Shown piece after piece: positions 18,846 through 28,327 of a stretch of 64,000 bases of DNA (position 1 is the first letter of the stretch; each line of letters starts with the position of its first letter). Both the position numbers and the translations under genes were made by a program. Origin of the DNA: Flavobacterium sp. GSB-24 (GTDB taxonomy: Bacteria; Bacteroidota; Bacteroidia; Flavobacteriales; Flavobacteriaceae); NCBI RefSeq assembly GCF_027924665.1, contig NZ_AP027043.1, positions 2,666,001-2,730,000 on the forward strand, given 5' to 3'. The notes under the pieces are model-generated. The model was not told the DNA's origin, ran no database searches, and worked only from the letters and a program-made list of their open reading frames with translations.

Positions 18846-21563
18846 ATGAAAGACGAAGAAGACGATAACATAATTCCAAACGACGACGAGAATAATTCAG
18901 ATGAAAACCTGATGGATAATCAGGATGGAGATGAAGATGAGATTATCGATGTAGATGCTAAGCATTTTGAAGGACAGCATTTTTACGAAAACCAAGAAGA
19001 AGAAGGCGAAGACGTTATTACAAAAGTAACGGGAATGTACAAAGATTGGTTTTTGGATTATGCTTCGTATGTAATTCTGGAACGTGCAGTTCCTGCTATC
19101 GAGGACGGATTTAAACCTGTTCAGCGTCGTATTATGCACTCTTTAAAAGAGCTGGATGATGGTCGATATAACAAAGTTGCCAATGTAGTAGGGCACACCA
19201 TGCAGTATCACCCACACGGAGATGCGAGTATTGGTGACGCAATGGTGCAGATTGGTCAAAAAGATCTACTAATTGACTGCCAGGGAAACTGGGGTAATAT
19301 TTTAACAGGCGACGGAGCGGCAGCTTCGCGTTACATTGAGGCACGTTTATCTAAATTTGCGTTGGAGGTTTTATATTCTCCAAAAATTACAGATTGGGGA
19401 GTTTCGTATGATGGTCGTCGTGCAGAACCAAACAATCTTCCAGTAAAATTCCCATTGCTTTTGGCACAAGGTGCAGAAGGTATTGCAGTTGGACTTTCTA
19501 CAAAAGTGCTGCCTCACAACTTCAACGAGTTGATTGATGCTTCTATTAAAATTTTAAAAGGAAAAGCATTTACGCTTTATCCTGATTTTATGACGGCTGG
19601 TATTGCCGATGTTTCCAATTATAATGACGGAATGCGTGGCGGACGTGTACGTGTGCGTGCTAAGATTTCGCAATTAGACAAAAATACACTGGTCATAACG
19701 CAAATTCCGTTTTCGACCAATACATCAAGTTTAATTGATAGTATTTTGAAAGCCAATGATAAAGGTAAAATCAAAATCAAGAAAATTGAAGACAACACAG
19801 CAGCCGATGTTGAAATTTTAATTCATCTTTTCCCAGGTGTTTCGCCAGATAAAACAATTGATGCTTTATTTGCTTTTACAGCCTGCGAAACTTCTGTTGC
19901 GCCTTTAGGTTGCGTTATTGAAGATAATAAACCGTTGTTTATTGGTGTTTCTGAAATGTTGAAGATTTCAACGCACAGAACCGTAGATTTGCTTCGTCAG
20001 GAATTAGAAATTCAATTAGAAGAATTAAAGAATAAATGGCATTTCTCTACTTTGGAAAAAATATTCATTCGCGAAGAAATGTATATTGATTTCAAGTTGT
20101 ATGGAGACAGAGAATCGCTTTACAAATATTTATACGATCGTTTTGAGCCTTTCAAAAAATCATTCGTTAGAGAAATCACTGATGAAGATTTACAGCGTTT
20201 GACTCAAATCCCGATGATTCGTATTACCCGTTTTGACTCGGATAAAGCCGATGAATTGATTTCAAGGTTAGAAGAAGAAATGAAAGAAGTCGAGTATAAT
20301 CTGGAGCATTTAACAGATTTTGCAATTGCGTATTTTACCAAATTAAAAGAGAAATACGGAAAAGGTCGTGAACGTCAGACAGAGCTTCGTGTTTTTGATA
20401 ATGTCGAAGCAACCAAAGTCGTTTTACGTAACACCAAATTGTACGTAAACCGCGAGGAAGGATTCGTAGGAACCAGCTTAAAGAAAGACGAATACGTTGC
20501 CGATTGTTCTGATATTGATGATGTAATTGTATTTTTGCGCGACGGTACAATGATGATTACAAAAGTAGACGCTAAAACGTTTATAGGTAAAGATATAATT
20601 CATGTTGCTGTTTTTGATAAGAGTGATAAACGTACGATTTATAACATGATGTACCGTGATGGTAAATCGGGTCCGTCTTATATCAAACGCTTTAATGTGA
20701 CAGGGGTAACACGTGACAAAGCATACGATTTGACAAACGGAACAAATGGTTCGCAAGTGGTTTATTTTTCACATAATCCAAATGGAGAAGCTGAGGTTGT
20801 AACCATATTATTGCGTCAAATAGGAACCATTAAGAAACTGAAATTCGATATTGATTTTGCTAAGCTGGCTATTAAAGGCCGTGGATCAAAAGGAAATTTA
20901 GTAACAAAATATCCAATCAAGAAAATCGAATTAAAAGAAAAAGGAATTTCGACTTTACTGCCAAGAAAAGTTTGGTTTGATGATACTGTAAAACGTCTAA
21001 ATGTTGATGGAAGAGGAGAACTGCTTGGAGAATTTAAACCAACAGATAAAATCTTAATAATTAGCCAGTCAGGAAAATTAAAAGTAATTATTCCAGAATT
21101 ATCAACTCATTTTGAAGAAGATATGATTGTTTTGGAAAAATGGAAGCCTAAAAAGCCAATTTCGGCAATTTATTATGATGGAGAAAAAGAGCGCTATTTC
21201 TTGAAACGTTTTCTTGTGGAGAATGAAGGAAAGGAAGAAAGCTTTATTACAGATCACCCGAATTCGCAATTAGAAATTGTGTCGACAGATTATCGTCCTG
21301 TGGCTCAATTGGTTTTTGCAAAAGTAAAAGGAGTTCAAAAAGAAGATTTACATATTGATGTTGAAGATTTTATAGCTGTAAAAGGCTTCAAGGCTCTAGG
21401 AAATCAGTTGACAACTGACAAATTAAAACAAGTTAATTTGTTAGATCCGCTTCCCTACGACGAACCAGTTGAAGAAGTTCCAGAGAAGCCAGAATTGTCA
21501 GACGAAGATTCAGTTGAAACAGAATTAGACGACGATGGTCAAATAGGTTTGGTTTTAGATTAA
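18846..21563 (+). CDS. parC: DNA topoisomerase IV subunit A
   Basis: This subunit cuts and rejoins DNA. The 905-residue protein has the winged-helix core with PVQRRIMHSL and the catalytic tyrosine in AAASRYIEARL (Tyr163). The region matching the quinolone pocket reads HPHGDASIGDAMV, with Ala127 and Asp131 where E. coli ParC has Ser80 and Glu84. An unusual acidic N-terminal extension (residues 1-57, many Asp/Glu) precedes the core and the C-terminus is also acidic (ELDDDGQIGLVLD). The beta-pinwheel region (from about 540) contains repeated blade motifs, e.g. GTMMITKVDAKTF. It partners with parE. Confidence 0.93.
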   Translation: MKDEEDDNIIPNDDENNSDENLMDNQDGDEDEIIDVDAKHFEGQHFYENQEEEGEDVITKVTGMYKDWFLDYASYVILERAVPAIEDGFKPVQRRIMHSLKELDDGRYNKVANVVGHTMQYHPHGDASIGDAMVQIGQKDLLIDCQGNWGNILTGDGAAASRYIEARLSKFALEVLYSPKITDWGVSYDGRRAEPNNLPVKFPLLLAQGAEGIAVGLSTKVLPHNFNELIDASIKILKGKAFTLYPDFMTAGIADVSNYNDGMRGGRVRVRAKISQLDKNTLVITQIPFSTNTSSLIDSILKANDKGKIKIKKIEDNTAADVEILIHLFPGVSPDKTIDALFAFTACETSVAPLGCVIEDNKPLFIGVSEMLKISTHRTVDLLRQELEIQLEELKNKWHFSTLEKIFIREEMYIDFKLYGDRESLYKYLYDRFEPFKKSFVREITDEDLQRLTQIPMIRITRFDSDKADELISRLEEEMKEVEYNLEHLTDFAIAYFTKLKEKYGKGRERQTELRVFDNVEATKVVLRNTKLYVNREEGFVGTSLKKDEYVADCSDIDDVIVFLRDGTMMITKVDAKTFIGKDIIHVAVFDKSDKRTIYNMMYRDGKSGPSYIKRFNVTGVTRDKAYDLTNGTNGSQVVYFSHNPNGEAEVVTILLRQIGTIKKLKFDIDFAKLAIKGRGSKGNLVTKYPIKKIELKEKGISTLLPRKVWFDDTVKRLNVDGRGELLGEFKPTDKILIISQSGKLKVIIPELSTHFEEDMIVLEKWKPKKPISAIYYDGEKERYFLKRFLVENEGKEESFITDHPNSQLEIVSTDYRPVAQLVFAKVKGVQKEDLHIDVEDFIAVKGFKALGNQLTTDKLKQVNLLDPLPYDEPVEEVPEKPELSDEDSVETELDDDGQIGLVLD

Positions 21564-21772: not shown

Positions 21773-22513
21773 ATGAAAAAAATTTTATGTCTAGTTAGTG
21801 CCATTTTATTGGTATTAAATTCTTGTTCAAGTAATGATGCACAAAGCATAGATAAAACTTCTGAAGTTTTACTTAAAAAGACAATTATTACAGGGGCTGA
21901 TAATTCCTTTTCTGAAGTGAAATGTTTATACGATGGAAATAAGATAGTTAGTAATACATCGAATAATGAAAATGAACTACGATATATTTACACAGGAACT
22001 AAAATAACAAAACTAGAATTCTTCGAAAGAGGGATGCTTCAAAGTTATATAGATTATACATATAATAATGAAAAATTGGTTTCTAAAAGTAACATGTTGC
22101 CTAATGGTGAAAAAATAAGCGAAACAGAATATACTTATTTTGATAATGGAAATATAAGTTATTTGGAATCTATTAAAGCAGGATCTCAAATAGTTACAGT
22201 TTTAGGAGTTTATAAGTTTTCAAATGGCAATTTATTAAGTAGTGAAAAGTATGAGAATGGAGTTATGACTACAGGTGTATATTATGAATATGACAATAAA
22301 AATAATCCAAGTAAAAATATTTTAGGATTTAATTTATTATTAGATCATGATGTATCTGTTAATAATGTAGTTAAACAAACTTGTATTTCAAATTCAGGTG
22401 TAACCACTGAATTTACAAACGCTTATAAATATAATGCTAAAGATTATCCAACTGAAAAAATTAAAAGTTTAGTAAATCGAAACGCTAAGGAAACAACTCA
22501 ATTTTTTTATTAA
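21773..22513 (+). CDS. lipoprotein with YD-like repeats, unknown function
   Basis: The 246-residue protein has a lipoprotein signal (MKKILCLVSAILLVLNSCSSN, Cys18). The rest consists of short tyrosine- and glycine-containing beta units (YDGNKIVS, YTGTKITKLEF, YNNEKLVSKS, YFDNGNISYLES, YEYDNKNNPSK), reminiscent of the YD/RHS or MORN type repeats seen in flavobacterial surface lipoproteins. I do not recognise a specific family. It is flanked on both sides by near-identical terminator sequences (21569 and 22543) and stands alone next to the type VI scar. Confidence 0.8.
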   Translation: MKKILCLVSAILLVLNSCSSNDAQSIDKTSEVLLKKTIITGADNSFSEVKCLYDGNKIVSNTSNNENELRYIYTGTKITKLEFFERGMLQSYIDYTYNNEKLVSKSNMLPNGEKISETEYTYFDNGNISYLESIKAGSQIVTVLGVYKFSNGNLLSSEKYENGVMTTGVYYEYDNKNNPSKNILGFNLLLDHDVSVNNVVKQTCISNSGVTTEFTNAYKYNAKDYPTEKIKSLVNRNAKETTQFFY

Positions 22514-22596: not shown

Positions 22597-23568
22597 TTAA
22601 TTTTCTGAGATAGAGATTAATTCTTGTTTTATCCATTTTACTTCATTGTTTTCAATACTAACAAAAATAGTATCTCCGTCTTTTATTTCTCCTGAGATTA
22701 TTTTCTTAGCTAAAGGTCTTCTTAAATGCGTTCGAATGATACTTTTAATCGGTCTTGCTCCGTATTTAGCATTATACCCATTTTCAGCCAGATAAAGTTT
22801 AGCTTCTATTGGAATATCGACTTTAATATTGATGTTTTTGAGTAAATCCATAAACTCTTTTTTCAGGTGAATTTCAAATATTTTTAGAGCATTTTCTTTA
22901 CTGATAGGCGCAAAAGGTACAATTTCAGTTAAACGTCCTAAAAATTCTGGTCTGAAATAATTCGTCATAATTTCCATTAAAGAAGTTGAGGCAGGAATTT
23001 GACCACTATTAAAAGTTTCAACAATGTGGTCTGCACCAATATTCGAAGTAAAAAGAATAATAGCATTAGAGAAATCACCTTCTTTTCCTAGTCGGTCGTG
23101 CAGTTTTCCTTCGTCCATAATTTGAAGAAAAACATCAAAAACAGACGGATGCGCTTTTTCAATTTCATCAAATAAAACTATAGAGTAAGGTTTCTGTCTG
23201 ATCTTGTTTACCAGTAAGCCTCCCTGTTCATACCCTACGTATCCCGGAGGCGCCCCGTAAAGTAAAGCCGCTGAATGTTCTTCTTTAAATTCAGACATGT
23301 CAAAACGTATAATTGCATTCTCATCCTGAAAAAGAAATTCGGCTAGACTTTTGGCCAGTTCTGTTTTACCAGTTCCTGTTGGACCTAAGAAAAAGAAAGA
23401 AGCGATTGGCTGTCCAGCTTTGCTTAATCCAGATCTTGATTCTAGAATTGAACCTGCAACTGTTGCAATACAATGATCTTGACCAATTACCCTTTGGTTA
23501 AGAACTTGCTCAATATTGTTAAGTTTTTGTTTTTCTTCTTCGTTTAATTTTCCTGCTGGTATTCCTGC
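22597..23568 (-). pseudogene. tssH: tssH (ClpV-like AAA+ ATPase), C-terminal half only
   Basis: The frame is open from 23568 down to the stop at 22597 and encodes only the second AAA+ module, beginning at AGIPAGKLNEEEKQKL, the linker before NBD2. The Walker A GPTGTGKT, Walker B VLFDEIEKAHP, sensor 1 LFTSNIG, Arg finger in RPEFLGRLTEIVPF and sensor 2 GARPIKSII are intact. The GRLTEIVPFAPIS stretch fits a type VI TssH better than housekeeping ClpB. The N-domain and first ATPase domain are absent: upstream of the AGIP motif the frame shows one unrelated codon and a stop. In a full-length protein this would be about 850 residues. Confidence 0.82.
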
Positions 23569-24143
23569 AGATCAGCCAGCTCTTGGCTTCGGTAGAGCAG
23601 CAGGCAAAGGAAAGCAGCTTTTTAAAAAATAATGATCCTTATATAATGATCAAACCTAAATCTGATCAATATAAAGATAATACATTTCAAATAAATTACT
23701 GGTCAACCTGTGCAGAAGAGGGAAATGACATTAAAGCAGGAACCGCTTTAGACTGCAAAGATTTATTTTTTATAAGCAACAAAGTTACCTTAATGACTAA
23801 TACTGTTGGAGGCGTAAATAAGCAAAATAATAAGGACAGGATTTTAGCGTACAGAAATGCATTACTAACCCGTGGCAGAATCGTAACTTTTGCTGATATT
23901 AAAGCTTTTGGTTTTAACCATTTTAAAAATTCGATTACCGATATTAAAATAGAAAAAGGAACTCGAAAAGAAATTTCTGTAAAAGCAGGTTTTAGCCGAA
24001 CGGTAGATATTTTCATAAAAACAAATCCAGAAGAAAAGGAACATTTATCAAATTCCGAATGGGAGTATCTATGTGACAGCTTCATGAAAAATCTTAAGAA
24101 TAGATCGTCAAACGTATTTCCATATAGAATGTTTGTCGACTAA
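23565..24143 (+). pseudogene. type VI baseplate protein (TssF-like), C-terminal fragment
   Basis: The frame runs from the junction to the stop at 24141-24143 and has no ATG near its start (the first possible initiation codon is a TTG at 23583). About 190 residues remain. The order SSFLKNNDPYIMIKPKSDQY, TFQINYWSTCAEEGNDI and AYRNALLTRGRIVTFADIKAFG resembles the C-terminal part of TssF/gp6-type baseplate subunits of Bacteroidota type VI systems, including the conserved RxRIVTxxDIKA motif. The family call is from memory and moderate. A complete TssF would have several hundred more residues. A terminator follows at 24149. Confidence 0.65.
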
Positions 24144-24148
24144 AAAGA

Positions 24149-24181
24149 GGAACGCCGAAATTTATATTTTCGGCGTTTTTG
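24149..24181 (+). terminator. terminator after the tssF-like fragment
   Basis: A perfect 10-bp stem, AACGCCGAAA / TTTCGGCGTT (24151-24160, 24168-24177), is followed by T residues, just past the stop codon at 24143. It could also serve the minus-strand peroxidase gene. Confidence 0.85.
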
Positions 24182-24205: not shown

Positions 24206-25990
24206 TTATTGGTATTTTTTATCTGTAAGCGTTTTCATAAAAGCAACAAGAGCATGTTCTTCTTTTACGGTTAAATTCAGTTTATCAAACGGCAAAGTTT
24301 GGTTTGCTACTTCATAACCTAAACCTTGTCCGCCGCCTTTATTGTAAAAAGAAACCACTTCTTCGAGTGTTTTAAAAACTCCATTGTGCATGTACGGAGC
24401 GGTAACTGCTGCATTTCGAACGGTTGGAGTTTTAAACGCACCAACCAATTGGGGCATTTTATTGTATAAATAACGGCCTTTATCTGGACTCAAAGTTCTG
24501 CCTGATGCTTCATTTGGAGTTCCAATAACTTCATGTTCTGTTTTTGAATAACTTGGCGGAACTGTTCCATTAAACAAAGGCGTAAAATGACAGGTGGCAC
24601 ATTTTGCTTTTCCCATAAAAAGATTCATTCCTTCAATTTCTTGATTATTAAGGCTGTTTTTATTTCCCCTCATGTATTTATCAAATCTGGAGTCAAAGGC
24701 ATTTAAAGAACGAATATAACTCGCAATTGCATTTTGAATCTGCCAGGCTTCTGGTTTTAAAGTTTTGGGATAGGCTTTTTTGAAGACTTTTATATACTCT
24801 TGATCTAAGAGAATTTTGGCATGAATGTTATCCATAGAACCATGCATTTCGTCTTTATTCTGAATAACATCAACACTCTGCTTTTCTAAATCTAACTGAC
24901 GCATGTCCCAAAATTGAGCATTTTGTAAAGAAGCATAAGTTAGAGTAGGAGTGTTTCGGGCTAGATTTGAACCTGTTAAAGATAGATTTGTTTTTAGTCC
25001 ATCTGTAAATGCTTTTTCAGGATGATGACAAGAAGCACAGCTTCGATCATTATTTTTAGAAAGGCTTTTATCATAAAACAGTTTTTCTCCCAGAATTGAT
25101 TTGTCCTTCGTAAAATTATATTCTTCCGAAAGTACAAAAGCATTTACATCAAAAGCATCTTTGTCAAATAAAGTTTCAATTGTTGGTTTTAGCGGACTGC
25201 TTTTTTTTACGTTTTTAATATGCTCTTCTTTTTGAAATGCTTTTAAATTTTTTGAAATCGGATTCAAATATTCGCTTATAAAAACAGCTCGGTTAAAAGC
25301 ATTGAAATTGTTGTTTTCTTGGCAATACTTTTGCGCTTTAGATACCAATTTTTTTAATTCTGTTAATGATTTATTATTAGCATTAATTTTTTCCAACGAT
25401 TCTGGAATCACAATTAAACTTTGTCCAGCTTCAAGAATTGAAGATTGCAAAATCGGACTATCAAAACCAGTAATTCCTAAAGCAATAACACGAAATACAT
25501 TTTGCTGAATAGCATCTAAAATATAATCATCACTAATCGTAATAACCTCAAAAGTACTTTTGAGCTGTTTGATATTCGATTGAAAGATATTCAATTCTCT
25601 AATTAAATCTTCTCTACTTTCTTTATTGTATTCAGGATAAATCATTTCTTCTATAACCTGAAAACCGTGTGGTTCAAAAGATCTGTTTTCTTCCAATTCC
25701 ATTTCATCCAAAGCTGGGCCATTCATAAATCTTGCCGTTTCCGGAATGAAATATTCAACTTCCCATTCCACTTTTTTATAAAGAAGACGAGACTTTTTAA
25801 ATTGCTGTACAATCTCTTTTTGAGATGAATTGTCATTTACAAGCTTTTGAAAATGAATGATTTCGTTGTCTAATTTGGTTAAATCAATTAGTAAATCTTG
25901 TTTAATAGATGATTTAGGATCTTCATTCTTTTGGCATGAAAACAACAAACAAAGTGTTATAACCAGAAATGAAAAATGGTTTAATTTCAT
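24206..25990 (-). CDS. di-haem cytochrome c peroxidase with an imelysin-like N-terminal domain
   Basis: The 594-residue lipoprotein (Cys19 in LLFSCQKN) has two parts. Residues 25-250 are helical with a piece resembling the imelysin GxHxxE-type motif (PHGFQVIEEMIY, 107-118); this comparison is mine and tentative. Residues 285-594 form a MauG/CcpA-type peroxidase with two haem motifs, CASCH (318-322) and CATCH (464-468), and a likely axial Met in APYMHNGVF (534). It would reduce hydrogen peroxide in the periplasm with electrons from cytochromes. It lies 67 bases downstream of the PhoX-like gene, co-directional, with a hairpin between them. Confidence 0.82.
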   Translation of the reverse strand: MKLNHFSFLVITLCLLFSCQKNEDPKSSIKQDLLIDLTKLDNEIIHFQKLVNDNSSQKEIVQQFKKSRLLYKKVEWEVEYFIPETARFMNGPALDEMELEENRSFEPHGFQVIEEMIYPEYNKESREDLIRELNIFQSNIKQLKSTFEVITISDDYILDAIQQNVFRVIALGITGFDSPILQSSILEAGQSLIVIPESLEKINANNKSLTELKKLVSKAQKYCQENNNFNAFNRAVFISEYLNPISKNLKAFQKEEHIKNVKKSSPLKPTIETLFDKDAFDVNAFVLSEEYNFTKDKSILGEKLFYDKSLSKNNDRSCASCHHPEKAFTDGLKTNLSLTGSNLARNTPTLTYASLQNAQFWDMRQLDLEKQSVDVIQNKDEMHGSMDNIHAKILLDQEYIKVFKKAYPKTLKPEAWQIQNAIASYIRSLNAFDSRFDKYMRGNKNSLNNQEIEGMNLFMGKAKCATCHFTPLFNGTVPPSYSKTEHEVIGTPNEASGRTLSPDKGRYLYNKMPQLVGAFKTPTVRNAAVTAPYMHNGVFKTLEEVVSFYNKGGGQGLGYEVANQTLPFDKLNLTVKEEHALVAFMKTLTDKKYQ

Positions 25991-26009
25991 AATAGTACTG
26001 TAGTAGAAA

Positions 26010-26034
26010 CAACCCTTATCAAAAATAAGGGTTG
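26010..26034 (-). terminator. hairpin between the PhoX-like and peroxidase genes
   Basis: A 10-bp stem (CAACCCTTAT / ATAAGGGTTG, 26010-26019 and 26025-26034) with a 5-base loop sits in the gap between the two co-directional genes. It has no strong T-run, so it may be an attenuator or RNA-processing site rather than a full terminator. Confidence 0.5.
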
Positions 26035-26057
26035 CTTTATGATTTTGAATGAAATTA

Positions 26058-27536
26058 TTATCGCTGTACGTTTCTAATAATTACAGTTTGCCCGCCCTCT
26101 TTATTGGTTTGAGTTCCTGAGCCGTCAGCATTTTTAAAAGCATCACTCTGCCAAGTATGAGGATGAACGTTTACTGTGAAAGTATCTGGAACACCAATGA
26201 TGTCTGAAATATCTTGCATTGCTCCAAATTCCCAGCTTCCAAATCTCATTTCTCCAGTCTGGTTGTATAAAGTATTCCAAGCTACATCAGTTCTTTTGTG
26301 GTTCATGTTTAACCACGCTTTATTTTGTTTTGTAGCAATATTATACTGCCAGATGTACGAATCGTGTTTAGCATCAGCATAATAGCTGTCACCATCTTCT
26401 TGAATGTATACGAAGTTTTCAGTAACACATAAGTTATCCGGATTAATAATTCCAGTTCCTGGAGTACTGTCACCTTCAACCGCTAATTCTAAAGTTCCTT
26501 TAAGCGGATCTGCAGCATCCATTTTCAATTTATAAACTCTTCCCCACATTGTGTAGCCATCAACTGGAGCGTTATTAGTTGCCTGACCTGTTGCTGTAAA
26601 ATAAATTTCTCTATTGTTGCTTGCGCTTCCTTTTCTATAATCAACATCTTCAACTCTTGAAAAACGAATAGCTTTTAAATCGTTTACAGTTGTATTAATT
26701 ACAGCTCCAGTTAAGTTTTTAGCATTCGGAATTTCAACAAATTGAACTGGATAAGAATTGTTTAATGTCATAGACGTCTCAACCTGATTTCCGTCTGTTC
26801 TTTTTAAAGCGTATAATTTTCCGTTAGACAAATCACCAACTGTACTCATATACATAATCAATTGTCCTGCACTTACATGTGAAGTAGCATAAGATTGATC
26901 TTCTCCGATAAGAATTACTGTTTTTCCTGGATAAGCTTCCTTTGGTAATGGAACAGTGTTTTCCATACTTGCTTTTCCTAAAGCTGGTAAAACTCTATCC
27001 GTTCTAGCTTTGTCTGAAGATAATCCCAACGGATTGATTCCGTGAACCATGCTTTCCTGACCGCTTTCTCCAGCAGTTAAAAAGATAGGACCAAATCCGT
27101 GAATTTCTGGAGTTGCTAAAGTTGCAGAACACAAACGAGTTAAACCTCCAACACCATCAACTAGGTAATCACCTTTTACAGGTTTGAATGTTTTATCTAA
27201 ATAAACTCTCGAAACCGATTGAAGAATTTCGTGATTGGTAATCATAATATAACCATCTCCATTTGGATCTTTCATTAGTCCAGCGCCATCTGGCTGGGCA
27301 CCGTAAACAAAAGAAGGAGATTCTGGAAGCACATCTGAACTTGCAATTAAAGTACTGATTTTTATGTTTTCGAAGCCAGGCATTGCATATACAAATGCAG
27401 GAACTTTTGAGTGAGAAGTAAAATCGATACTGGCATTTACATCGTTCGAAGATTTTTTGTCATCATCTTGACAGGAAATTACAGAAAGACCTGCGATTCC
27501 AAGTAAAGTAATTGATTTTAAGAAGTTAGCTTTCAT
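26058..27536 (-). CDS. PhoX-like (DUF839) lipoprotein
   Basis: The ATG at 27536 gives 492 residues with a lipoprotein signal (MKANFLKSITLLGIAGLSVISC). The ATG at 27584 would add sixteen residues before this signal and is rejected. The domain looks like DUF839/PhoX: ITNHEIL, FLTAGESGQE, ILIGEDQSYATSHV, SRVEDVDYR, NPDNLCVTENFVYIQEDGD. PhoX proteins are calcium- and iron-dependent alkaline phosphatases of the periplasm; here the metal-site residues cannot be confirmed by eye, so phosphatase activity is inferred. It is co-directional with the di-haem peroxidase gene downstream. Confidence 0.8.
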   Translation of the reverse strand: MKANFLKSITLLGIAGLSVISCQDDDKKSSNDVNASIDFTSHSKVPAFVYAMPGFENIKISTLIASSDVLPESPSFVYGAQPDGAGLMKDPNGDGYIMITNHEILQSVSRVYLDKTFKPVKGDYLVDGVGGLTRLCSATLATPEIHGFGPIFLTAGESGQESMVHGINPLGLSSDKARTDRVLPALGKASMENTVPLPKEAYPGKTVILIGEDQSYATSHVSAGQLIMYMSTVGDLSNGKLYALKRTDGNQVETSMTLNNSYPVQFVEIPNAKNLTGAVINTTVNDLKAIRFSRVEDVDYRKGSASNNREIYFTATGQATNNAPVDGYTMWGRVYKLKMDAADPLKGTLELAVEGDSTPGTGIINPDNLCVTENFVYIQEDGDSYYADAKHDSYIWQYNIATKQNKAWLNMNHKRTDVAWNTLYNQTGEMRFGSWEFGAMQDISDIIGVPDTFTVNVHPHTWQSDAFKNADGSGTQTNKEGGQTVIIRNVQR

Positions 27537-27697
27537 AATTTGTTTTGTTTTTTTGATTAGAGCAAAGCTATCTTTCAAAAACAAAATACATGTTATGGCT
27601 ATTTTTTCTTTTTGCTAATAATTATCAGTCTTATATTACTAAATGGTAAATATTCCTGTTTAAATGTAAATTTAAGATTGATAAAAAAAACTTAAAA

Positions 27698-28327
27698 CTA
27701 TTTAAAAAGCTGATTTAGATTAACTTCTTTCTTCTCTCTCAGCTTCTTGACAATTTTAAGAAATGCAATCGCTGTTATATACGCATCGCCCAAAGCGGTG
27801 TGACGGTCTTTTTTTGAAATATCAAATTTATCTGCCAGATCATCCAAAGTATAATGATCTTTTCTTTCGAACAAATGCGACTGAATTAAAGTCTTTTTAT
27901 ACAAATACGCGGTATCTAAAGTTTTATTGGTTAAATGCGGAAGTCCATTTCGTTCTAAAGCTTTATTAATCATCGTAACATCAAAAATAGTGTGATGTGC
28001 AATGATTATTGAATCTCCTAAAAAGTCTAAAAATTGTTGCAAAGCTTCTAATTCTGTTGGACGTTTGACAAGCAAATCTTTTAAAATTCCGTGAATTTGA
28101 GCGGTGGATTTATCGTAATGATCTTGTTCAAGATATACTTCAAAGCTGTCCTGAACATTAATAATTCCATTTTGTAGAACCAATGCGCCTATGCATAGCA
28201 TTCGATCGTTTTCATAATCAAAACCAGTCGTTTCTGTATCCAGAACAACAAAACGAGTTTCTTCGATTGTAATATTTTCGTCGAATAGATTATTTTCTTC
28301 TTTTTTCCAAAAATTGAATAAACTCAT
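27698..28327 (-). CDS. DnaQ-like 3'-5' exonuclease
   Basis: The 209-residue protein has the DEDDh exonuclease motifs: VLDTETTGFDYENDRM (Exo I), IIAHHTIFDVTMINKALERNGL (Exo II) and RHTALGDAYITAIAFL with the catalytic His and Asp (Exo III). It is about the size of the epsilon subunit but no polymerase partner is evident. Its start is two bases after the stop of the DUF294 gene, so the two are in one operon. This pair is a known conserved arrangement in other bacteria, where it often accompanies an acetate permease; none is here. Confidence 0.88.
   Translation of the reverse strand: MSLFNFWKKEENNLFDENITIEETRFVVLDTETTGFDYENDRMLCIGALVLQNGIINVQDSFEVYLEQDHYDKSTAQIHGILKDLLVKRPTELEALQQFLDFLGDSIIIAHHTIFDVTMINKALERNGLPHLTNKTLDTAYLYKKTLIQSHLFERKDHYTLDDLADKFDISKKDRHTALGDAYITAIAFLKIVKKLREKKEVNLNQLFK

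Follow-up and report, generated by a model that had tools for sequence, protein, structure and literature searches.

Only a fraction of Flavobacterium species encode the T6SSiii of Bacteroidota, and the accessible part of PMC10781749 leaves the role of its loss open. Parallel loss of type VI secretion systems (T6SSs) is reported for Escherichia coli ST410 and ST131 where, according to the accessible sections of PMC10711316, tss deletions of about 20 kb leave rhsG and tssM remnants, with no mobile elements at the deletion. The locus described here lies in a 64-kb window, meaning the whole stretch of DNA analysed, which is harboured by a Flavobacterium genome of 5.35 Mb in two contigs (G000). 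Taken alone, the two gene stubs in the window are an ordinary deletion scar; the recurrence of their breakpoints in other genomes is not ordinary. That recurrence is invisible from the window and needs other genomes to be seen.

An intact form of the locus is found in Flavobacterium sp. KJJ (G077), whose codon numbering is used throughout. Its order is parE, parC, tssH on the minus strand, T6SS core, tssF on the plus strand, exonuclease and CBS gene; parE, parC, exonuclease, CBS, peroxidase, PhoX and vgrG are names given by the look of the sequences, not by profiles. Ten proteins of this locus were scanned, giving matches over the profile cut-offs for TssC (PF17541), TssD (PF17642), TssN (PF17555), TssO (PF17561), TssF (PF05947) and NlpC/P60, matches below cut-off for TssG, VipA and a LysM model, and one protein with no match at all. 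It shares TssC, TssD, TssN and TssO with T6SSiii as presented in the accessible text of PMC10781749; the window, in contrast, retains only two 3' gene ends, and that text describes neither such remnants nor their breakpoints.

The first stub, a remnant of tssH covering the D2 ATPase region, occupies 22597..23565 on the minus strand and comprises codons 497-818 plus stop (322 codons). It is followed by a 2-nt spacer, TG, at 23566..23567, which could have come from either side, and then by a tssF remnant at 23568..24143 on the plus strand, with codons 420-610 plus stop (191 codons). Both remnants were located by tblastn with their ends set at base level, and the tssH remnant also by Pfam. In the tblastn alignments, window 23568-22600 matches residues 496-818 of KJJ TssH (818 aa) with 94% identity and window 23562-24140 matches residues 418-610 of KJJ TssF (618 aa) with 90% identity. 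Base 23565 pairs with position 1 of tssH codon G497, while tssF sets in with the codon CAG (23568-23570), at the place of KJJ Q420. The preliminary description, made from the window alone, had read the two genes as C-terminal parts whose other ends vanish together at 23565-23570, where the hexamer CTGCAG lies, and it was correct on all of these points.

To the left of the stubs is a parC-like gene (18846..21563, plus strand), 94.6% identical to the KJJ gene left of intact tssH. The right neighbours (24206..28327, minus strand) are a cytochrome c peroxidase-like gene at 24206-25990, a PhoX-like gene at 26058-27584 and an exonuclease-like gene at 27698-28327, the last being the kind of gene that lies directly 3' of intact tssF in KJJ. 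A lipoprotein-like gene at 21773-22513 separates parC from the tssH remnant in the window, while in KJJ tssH follows parC directly. Both alignments lie far outside what chance would give, and the genes on either side stand in the order of the intact locus; the comparison of stubs and synteny proposed earlier agrees with KJJ. From tssH codon 497 to tssF codon 420 the KJJ locus spans about 26.7 kb, and this stretch is gone from the window. Neither tssC, sought with KJJ TssC as query, nor the N-terminal part of tssF was found in G000; tssC was absent from all 20 stub genomes tested, G000 included, and present in both intact ones. A T6SS of this kind retained elsewhere in the genome was considered and rejected, tssC not being found. 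These results confirm that a single deletion took about 26.7 kb out of the middle of a T6SSiii locus and left its outer ends as the two stubs, as had been proposed for a core lying between divergent tssH and tssF.

Profile searches recognise only one of the two stubs. Pfam reports AAA_2 and ClpB_D2-small on the tssH stub, but no TssF domain on the tssF stub, and PF05947 has no match anywhere in the window's genome. The expected similarity was therefore seen for tssH and not for tssF, because PF05947 matches only residues 26-318 of the intact protein (33.7 bits against a cut-off of 25 in KJJ TssF, in its N-terminal half) and this region is deleted in the stub; by profiles alone the second gene would be missed. 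The curated VI_ClpV1 profile (TIGR03345) gives the tssH stub 187.5 bits, below its cut-off of 884.95, and the ClpB model scores it higher, at 243.1 bits against a cut-off of 1232.1. Such low scores are what the C-terminal fragment of an HSP100 protein would be expected to give: with residues 497-818 only, the stub has no N-terminal domain and does not keep both ATPase domains complete. Its earliest ATG, GTG or TTG, at 23298 (codon 586), falls downstream of the GPTGTGKT stretch, which we take to be the Walker A motif, so that translation of an active ATPase seems unlikely, to judge from the reading frame. The window stubs are probably non-functional leftovers.

The frequency of such truncations was assessed in 398 genomes of the genus, evenly drawn from a larger group. 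The tssF C-terminus was matched in 101 of them (E <= 0.001) and the tssH C-terminus in 98 (E <= 1e-60). A tssH copy of at least 83% identity is present in 60 genomes, in 27 of which the open frame is shorter than 400 aa; the tssH pieces of G015 and G319 are shorter still. Among more distant tssH types (57-75% identity, 37 places) only two frames fall below 800 aa (G324 and G172), and that of G324 begins at the first base of its contig. Truncation is concentrated in this T6SS type, the group with at least 83% tssH identity. In a search limited to public proteins of stub length, 59 of 83 candidates were tssF pieces (E <= 1e-10), and 442 of 8000 scored proteins were tssH-like (E <= 1e-60), 120 of the latter being listed. 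Some of these public proteins start at the same residues as the stubs at the genomic joints: ELLQNV in P0002, P0016, P0017, P0021 and P0025, DIESV in P0009, and EINQLL in P0012, P0015, P0018, P0019 and P0027. In others GAPPG is preceded by read-in, for example RKFPFH in P0071 and RKFPSH in P0068. Several of these proteins come from short contigs labelled jgi, lgn or ena, presumably metagenome assemblies.

For 35 joints the stub locus was compared with that of the nearest intact relative. One of two tssH codons, G600 (25 genomes) or G497 (5), marks the left end to within 1-2 nt in 30 genomes. The G600 site, in the GAPPG codons, is joined to tssF codons 24 (5 genomes), 50 (1), 346 (4), 378 (1), 390 (4), 429 (1) and 583 (8), and once to hcp codon 50. 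The G497 site, in the GIPAG codons, is joined to tssF 420 in the window, Root935, G006 (F. anhuiense) and G008, and to tssC 46 in G202. The precision expected of site-specific recombination at preferred sites is seen throughout: all 30 joints at the two tssH codons have spacers of 2 nt (19 joints) or 3 nt (11) between left end and right-hand codon, with no inserted base beyond these. In 28 of the 30, GA or GG are the first two bases of the right-hand codon, the exceptions being CAG in the window and CAA in Root935; codons with these initials make up about 20% of tssH and tssF. Counting each distinct joint once, without a tree, and excluding G070, G319 and G327 as their joints were not resolved, 16 joints end in tssH and 8 of these lie within 3 nt of G600, a number reached in none of 200,000 uniform draws. 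The recurrence of these breakpoints is, in our view, strongly supported.

Other joints are more scattered. Root186 joins tssH 550 to tssF 420, potami joins tssH about 190 to tssF 420 within a shared 7-nt repeat (TTTGGTT), and F. cutihirudinis joins tssH about 797 to tssF 420. Further pairs are tssH about 30 with tssF 423 (G420), about 677 with 390 (G015) and 793 with 583 (G361). In zhairuonense and G327 the remnant begins at tssF 424, with no tssH match. A further five genomes do not follow the tssH left-end rule. In G337 a terminator-like sequence precedes tssF 390 to about 407 and then 583, again with no tssH; in G083 tssF 583 follows unrelated DNA and in G335 it stands, 1-2 nt off, behind a gene that precedes tssF, both without tssH. 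In G346 (L067 7678-9345) an NlpC/P60-domain gene is fused in frame to tssF from codon 185, and this fusion must be very young, since over 235 nt its tssF portion shows 100% identity with the intact gene of G065. Finally, in G173 (L074 5761-8062) two ORFs that look like an IS21 transposase and its helper lie beside a tssF cut at codon 243.

The arrangement of the locus also varies. In G117, G079 (contig 66), G121, G209, G218 and L095 (G202), tssH and tssF stand tail to tail with 49 to 860 bp between them. This is the KJJ order circularly permuted, as would result if the cluster had been transferred in circular form. Stretches of 9-12 kb without parC (L096, L099, L102, L108, L131, L132, L135, L137, L138, L142 and L091) carry the same T6SS type, either intact or, in L091 (G398), with the joint of tssH 600 to tssF 24; these loci probably sit at other chromosomal places.

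Recurrence could be only apparent if a few deletion alleles had each arisen once and then passed from one species to another, the conserved flanks allowing homologous recombination. The question was addressed with a parC tree, which holds 54 genomes because 12 of the 66 loci had no parC in the stretch taken, and with a tree of the tssH remnant holding 63 rows, G015 being too short to include. On the parC tree the same-joint genomes do not cluster: 600-to-583 needs 8 changes for 8 rows, 600-to-346, 600-to-390 and 600-to-24 need 4 for 4 each, and 497-to-420 needs 3 for 4, all of these numbers being forced by well-supported branches. The 17 intact rows are interspersed, and intact close relatives stand near deleted genomes (G086 for G006, G102 for G288, G132 for G230). 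The remnant tree likewise requires one change per row in the G600 groups (8, 5, 4 and 4) although, being less resolved, its strong branches force only 4, 4, 3 and 3. Intact rows and 497-to-420 rows do cluster on it slightly above chance (23 and 22 of 500 shuffles as low), as allele spread would predict. Over the 60 nt beside the joint, same-joint pairs differ by 0.227, scarcely less than other G600 pairs at 0.237 (as low in 80 of 300 label shuffles; intact pairs 0.196), and same-joint genomes differ in wobble bases within a few nucleotides of the joint. It was also observed that the first 60 nt of the tssH remnant at G600 joints is more divergent among deleted genomes (0.23-0.24) than among intact ones (0.196), a difference that the remainder of the remnant does not show.

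Recombination in the region is nevertheless real. Root935 (G253, L014), listed as belonging to the window's species, has the same joint and is sister to the window on both trees, yet dS between them reaches 0.31-0.41 within the stubs, compared with 0.03-0.21 for four genes of the flanks. With a shared joint and a stub dS above that of the flanks, the pair may represent one event or two. Their omega values relative to KJJ are 0.113 for the window and 0.046 for Root935 in tssF, and 0.048 and 0.069 in tssH; as the two genes disagree, no age order of the two losses is claimed. In the comparison of window 22600-24140 with L014 and L064, the two strains listed as one species differ far more in the stubs (dS 0.31-0.41) than in parC, PhoX and the exonuclease-like gene (0.03-0.14). 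Judged by these distances, the stub region would be a recombination hotspot. Since same-joint genomes are unclustered on both trees, with intact sister species among them, most losses look independent and recent, as far as the two trees can tell. Spread of a few alleles, which also leaves one left end with eight different partners unexplained, is consequently unlikely as a general account.

If the stubs had a function, for example that of a shortened D2 protein or of a C-terminal TssF protein, selection might favour those deletions that spare exactly these pieces. The tssH match is single and uninterrupted in 64 of 64 remnant or intact loci, and omega to the nearest intact row is 0.065 in 34 deleted-locus rows, which include G346 and G420 with all or most of tssH, against 0.046 in 29 intact rows. 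Intact frames and low omega mean either recent loss or some function, and we favour recent loss: a young age accounts equally well for the frames, whereas the pieces vary from 28 to 587 codons in tssF and from a few to nearly all codons in tssH, the tssH stub of the window lacks a usual start codon upstream of codon 586, and selection leaves the nucleotide-level agreement of the ends unexplained. Functional stubs are therefore an improbable explanation.

Deletions adjacent to mobile elements typically have one fixed end and variable partners, and the G600 pattern fits this. Insertion elements at preferred sites might thus have caused recombination or deletion of the DNA around them before disappearing completely, and the IS21-like gene pair of G173 would be in keeping with such a history. 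However, not one of 30 joints keeps an inserted base beyond the 2-3 nt, when intermediates would be expected, and we give this explanation little credence too.

The preliminary description had suggested microhomology at the junction, and slippage or microhomology-mediated deletion could in principle make hotspots of short repeats. The repeat at the potami joint and the 1-nt overlaps at several other joints are of this kind. At the window joint, however, microhomology is 0-2 nt, and a shared core between partner sites is not seen: in-register similarity is at or below random-site level in all 8 direct and 7 of 8 inverted comparisons, so that a single inverted one of the 16 (tssF 378, 0.01) exceeds chance. 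Eight unrelated partners for one left site argue further against short repeats, and the suggestion is not supported; such deletion is very unlikely to be the general cause. As for a PstI junction produced by cloning or during assembly, raised earlier on account of the CTGCAG at the joint, it is scarcely credible, for Root935 has the breakpoints without the hexamer, two other species share them and stub proteins from other sources start at the same residues, so that the hexamer is incidental.

The best reading, to which we assign a probability of about 0.5, is breakage at preferred sites followed by homology-free joining. A putative nuclease, transposase or recombinase would break the DNA at these sites, the left one perhaps being recognised in the form GGNNNNCCNSCNGG on the strand of tssH, after which end joining that needs no homology would seal the broken ends. 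On the plus strand, CCNGSNGGNNNNCC is the reading of each of the two tssH sites. In the window the left breakpoint word is CCTGCTGGTATTCC at 23552..23565 (plus strand), opposite the GIPAG codons of tssH, and a second match, CCCGGAGGCGCCCC at 23243..23256 (plus strand, GAPPG codons), is unbroken there and is the left breakpoint of the 25 other genomes. The intact KJJ locus has three occurrences of CCNGSNGGNNNNCC, the two tssH sites and one in a vgrG-like gene, and G000 has 62, against 22 for the pattern read backwards; having been found after the fact, the shared word is a lead only. Matrices built from the G600 and G497 sites do not place either among the other's top 8 matches. At the right-hand sites no common motif appears beyond a first G/E/D codon, the total information being reached by 618 of 5000 random draws. 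Single columns stand out against random sites at +10 (5/5000), +31 (39/5000) and +6 (79/5000), but no all-site motif is claimed because the largest of them, +10, was matched somewhere in 754 of 5000 draws.

A gene for Ku is present in 20 of 24 genomes (15 of the 17 with the deletion, 5 of the 7 that are intact), so that end joining is available as a candidate route in most genomes tested; G290 and G233, both with G600 joints, have none. A Chi-like word, CCNGSNGG, is located 7 nt before the left end in the right orientation, and a Chi-like stop of end resection is not claimed as the right ends are without such a word. Other candidates, considered on general grounds, were gyrase sites, RNA-guided cutting, integron or serine-recombinase cores and homing-type endonucleases. 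More specifically, and more tentatively than breakage and joining as such, a putative enzyme might recurrently delete this type of Flavobacterium T6SS with near base precision, cutting before GGNNNNCCNSCNGG at G497 or G600, at conserved codon positions and with wobble tolerated, and ending at a few codons that mostly begin with GA or GG; the locus may then be subject to a programmed or parasite-driven switching-off of a weapon. Since the losses are mostly young, lineages with the deletion would either go extinct or reacquire the locus through recombination.

T6SS loci are often lost, but neither random nor repeat-driven deletion would be expected to yield breakpoints that agree to 1-2 nt across dozens of species in the absence of shared homology. 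Their recurrence deserves a mechanism. If an enzyme is responsible, it targets a bacterial weapon; if DNA repair is, the locus is a natural assay of DNA end choice in Bacteroidota. The intact remnant frames suggest that weapon-less Flavobacterium lineages are young, which bears on the cost and benefit of the T6SS. A literature search returned no publication on recurrent T6SS breakpoints in Flavobacterium, most subscription papers lying outside its coverage.

The nearest described cases differ in instructive ways. In E. coli ST410 and ST131 the accessible sections of PMC10711316 report one junction per clade, read as a single event, whereas in Flavobacterium the same junctions occur in unrelated species. 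At the T6SS effector loci of Pseudomonas aeruginosa, homology-facilitated illegitimate recombination likewise has, in the accessible part of PMC11751169, one preferred end and another that is less precise. There, however, the preferred end is set by homology to incoming DNA and effectors are swapped, while in Flavobacterium the ends meet without homology and the whole machine is lost.
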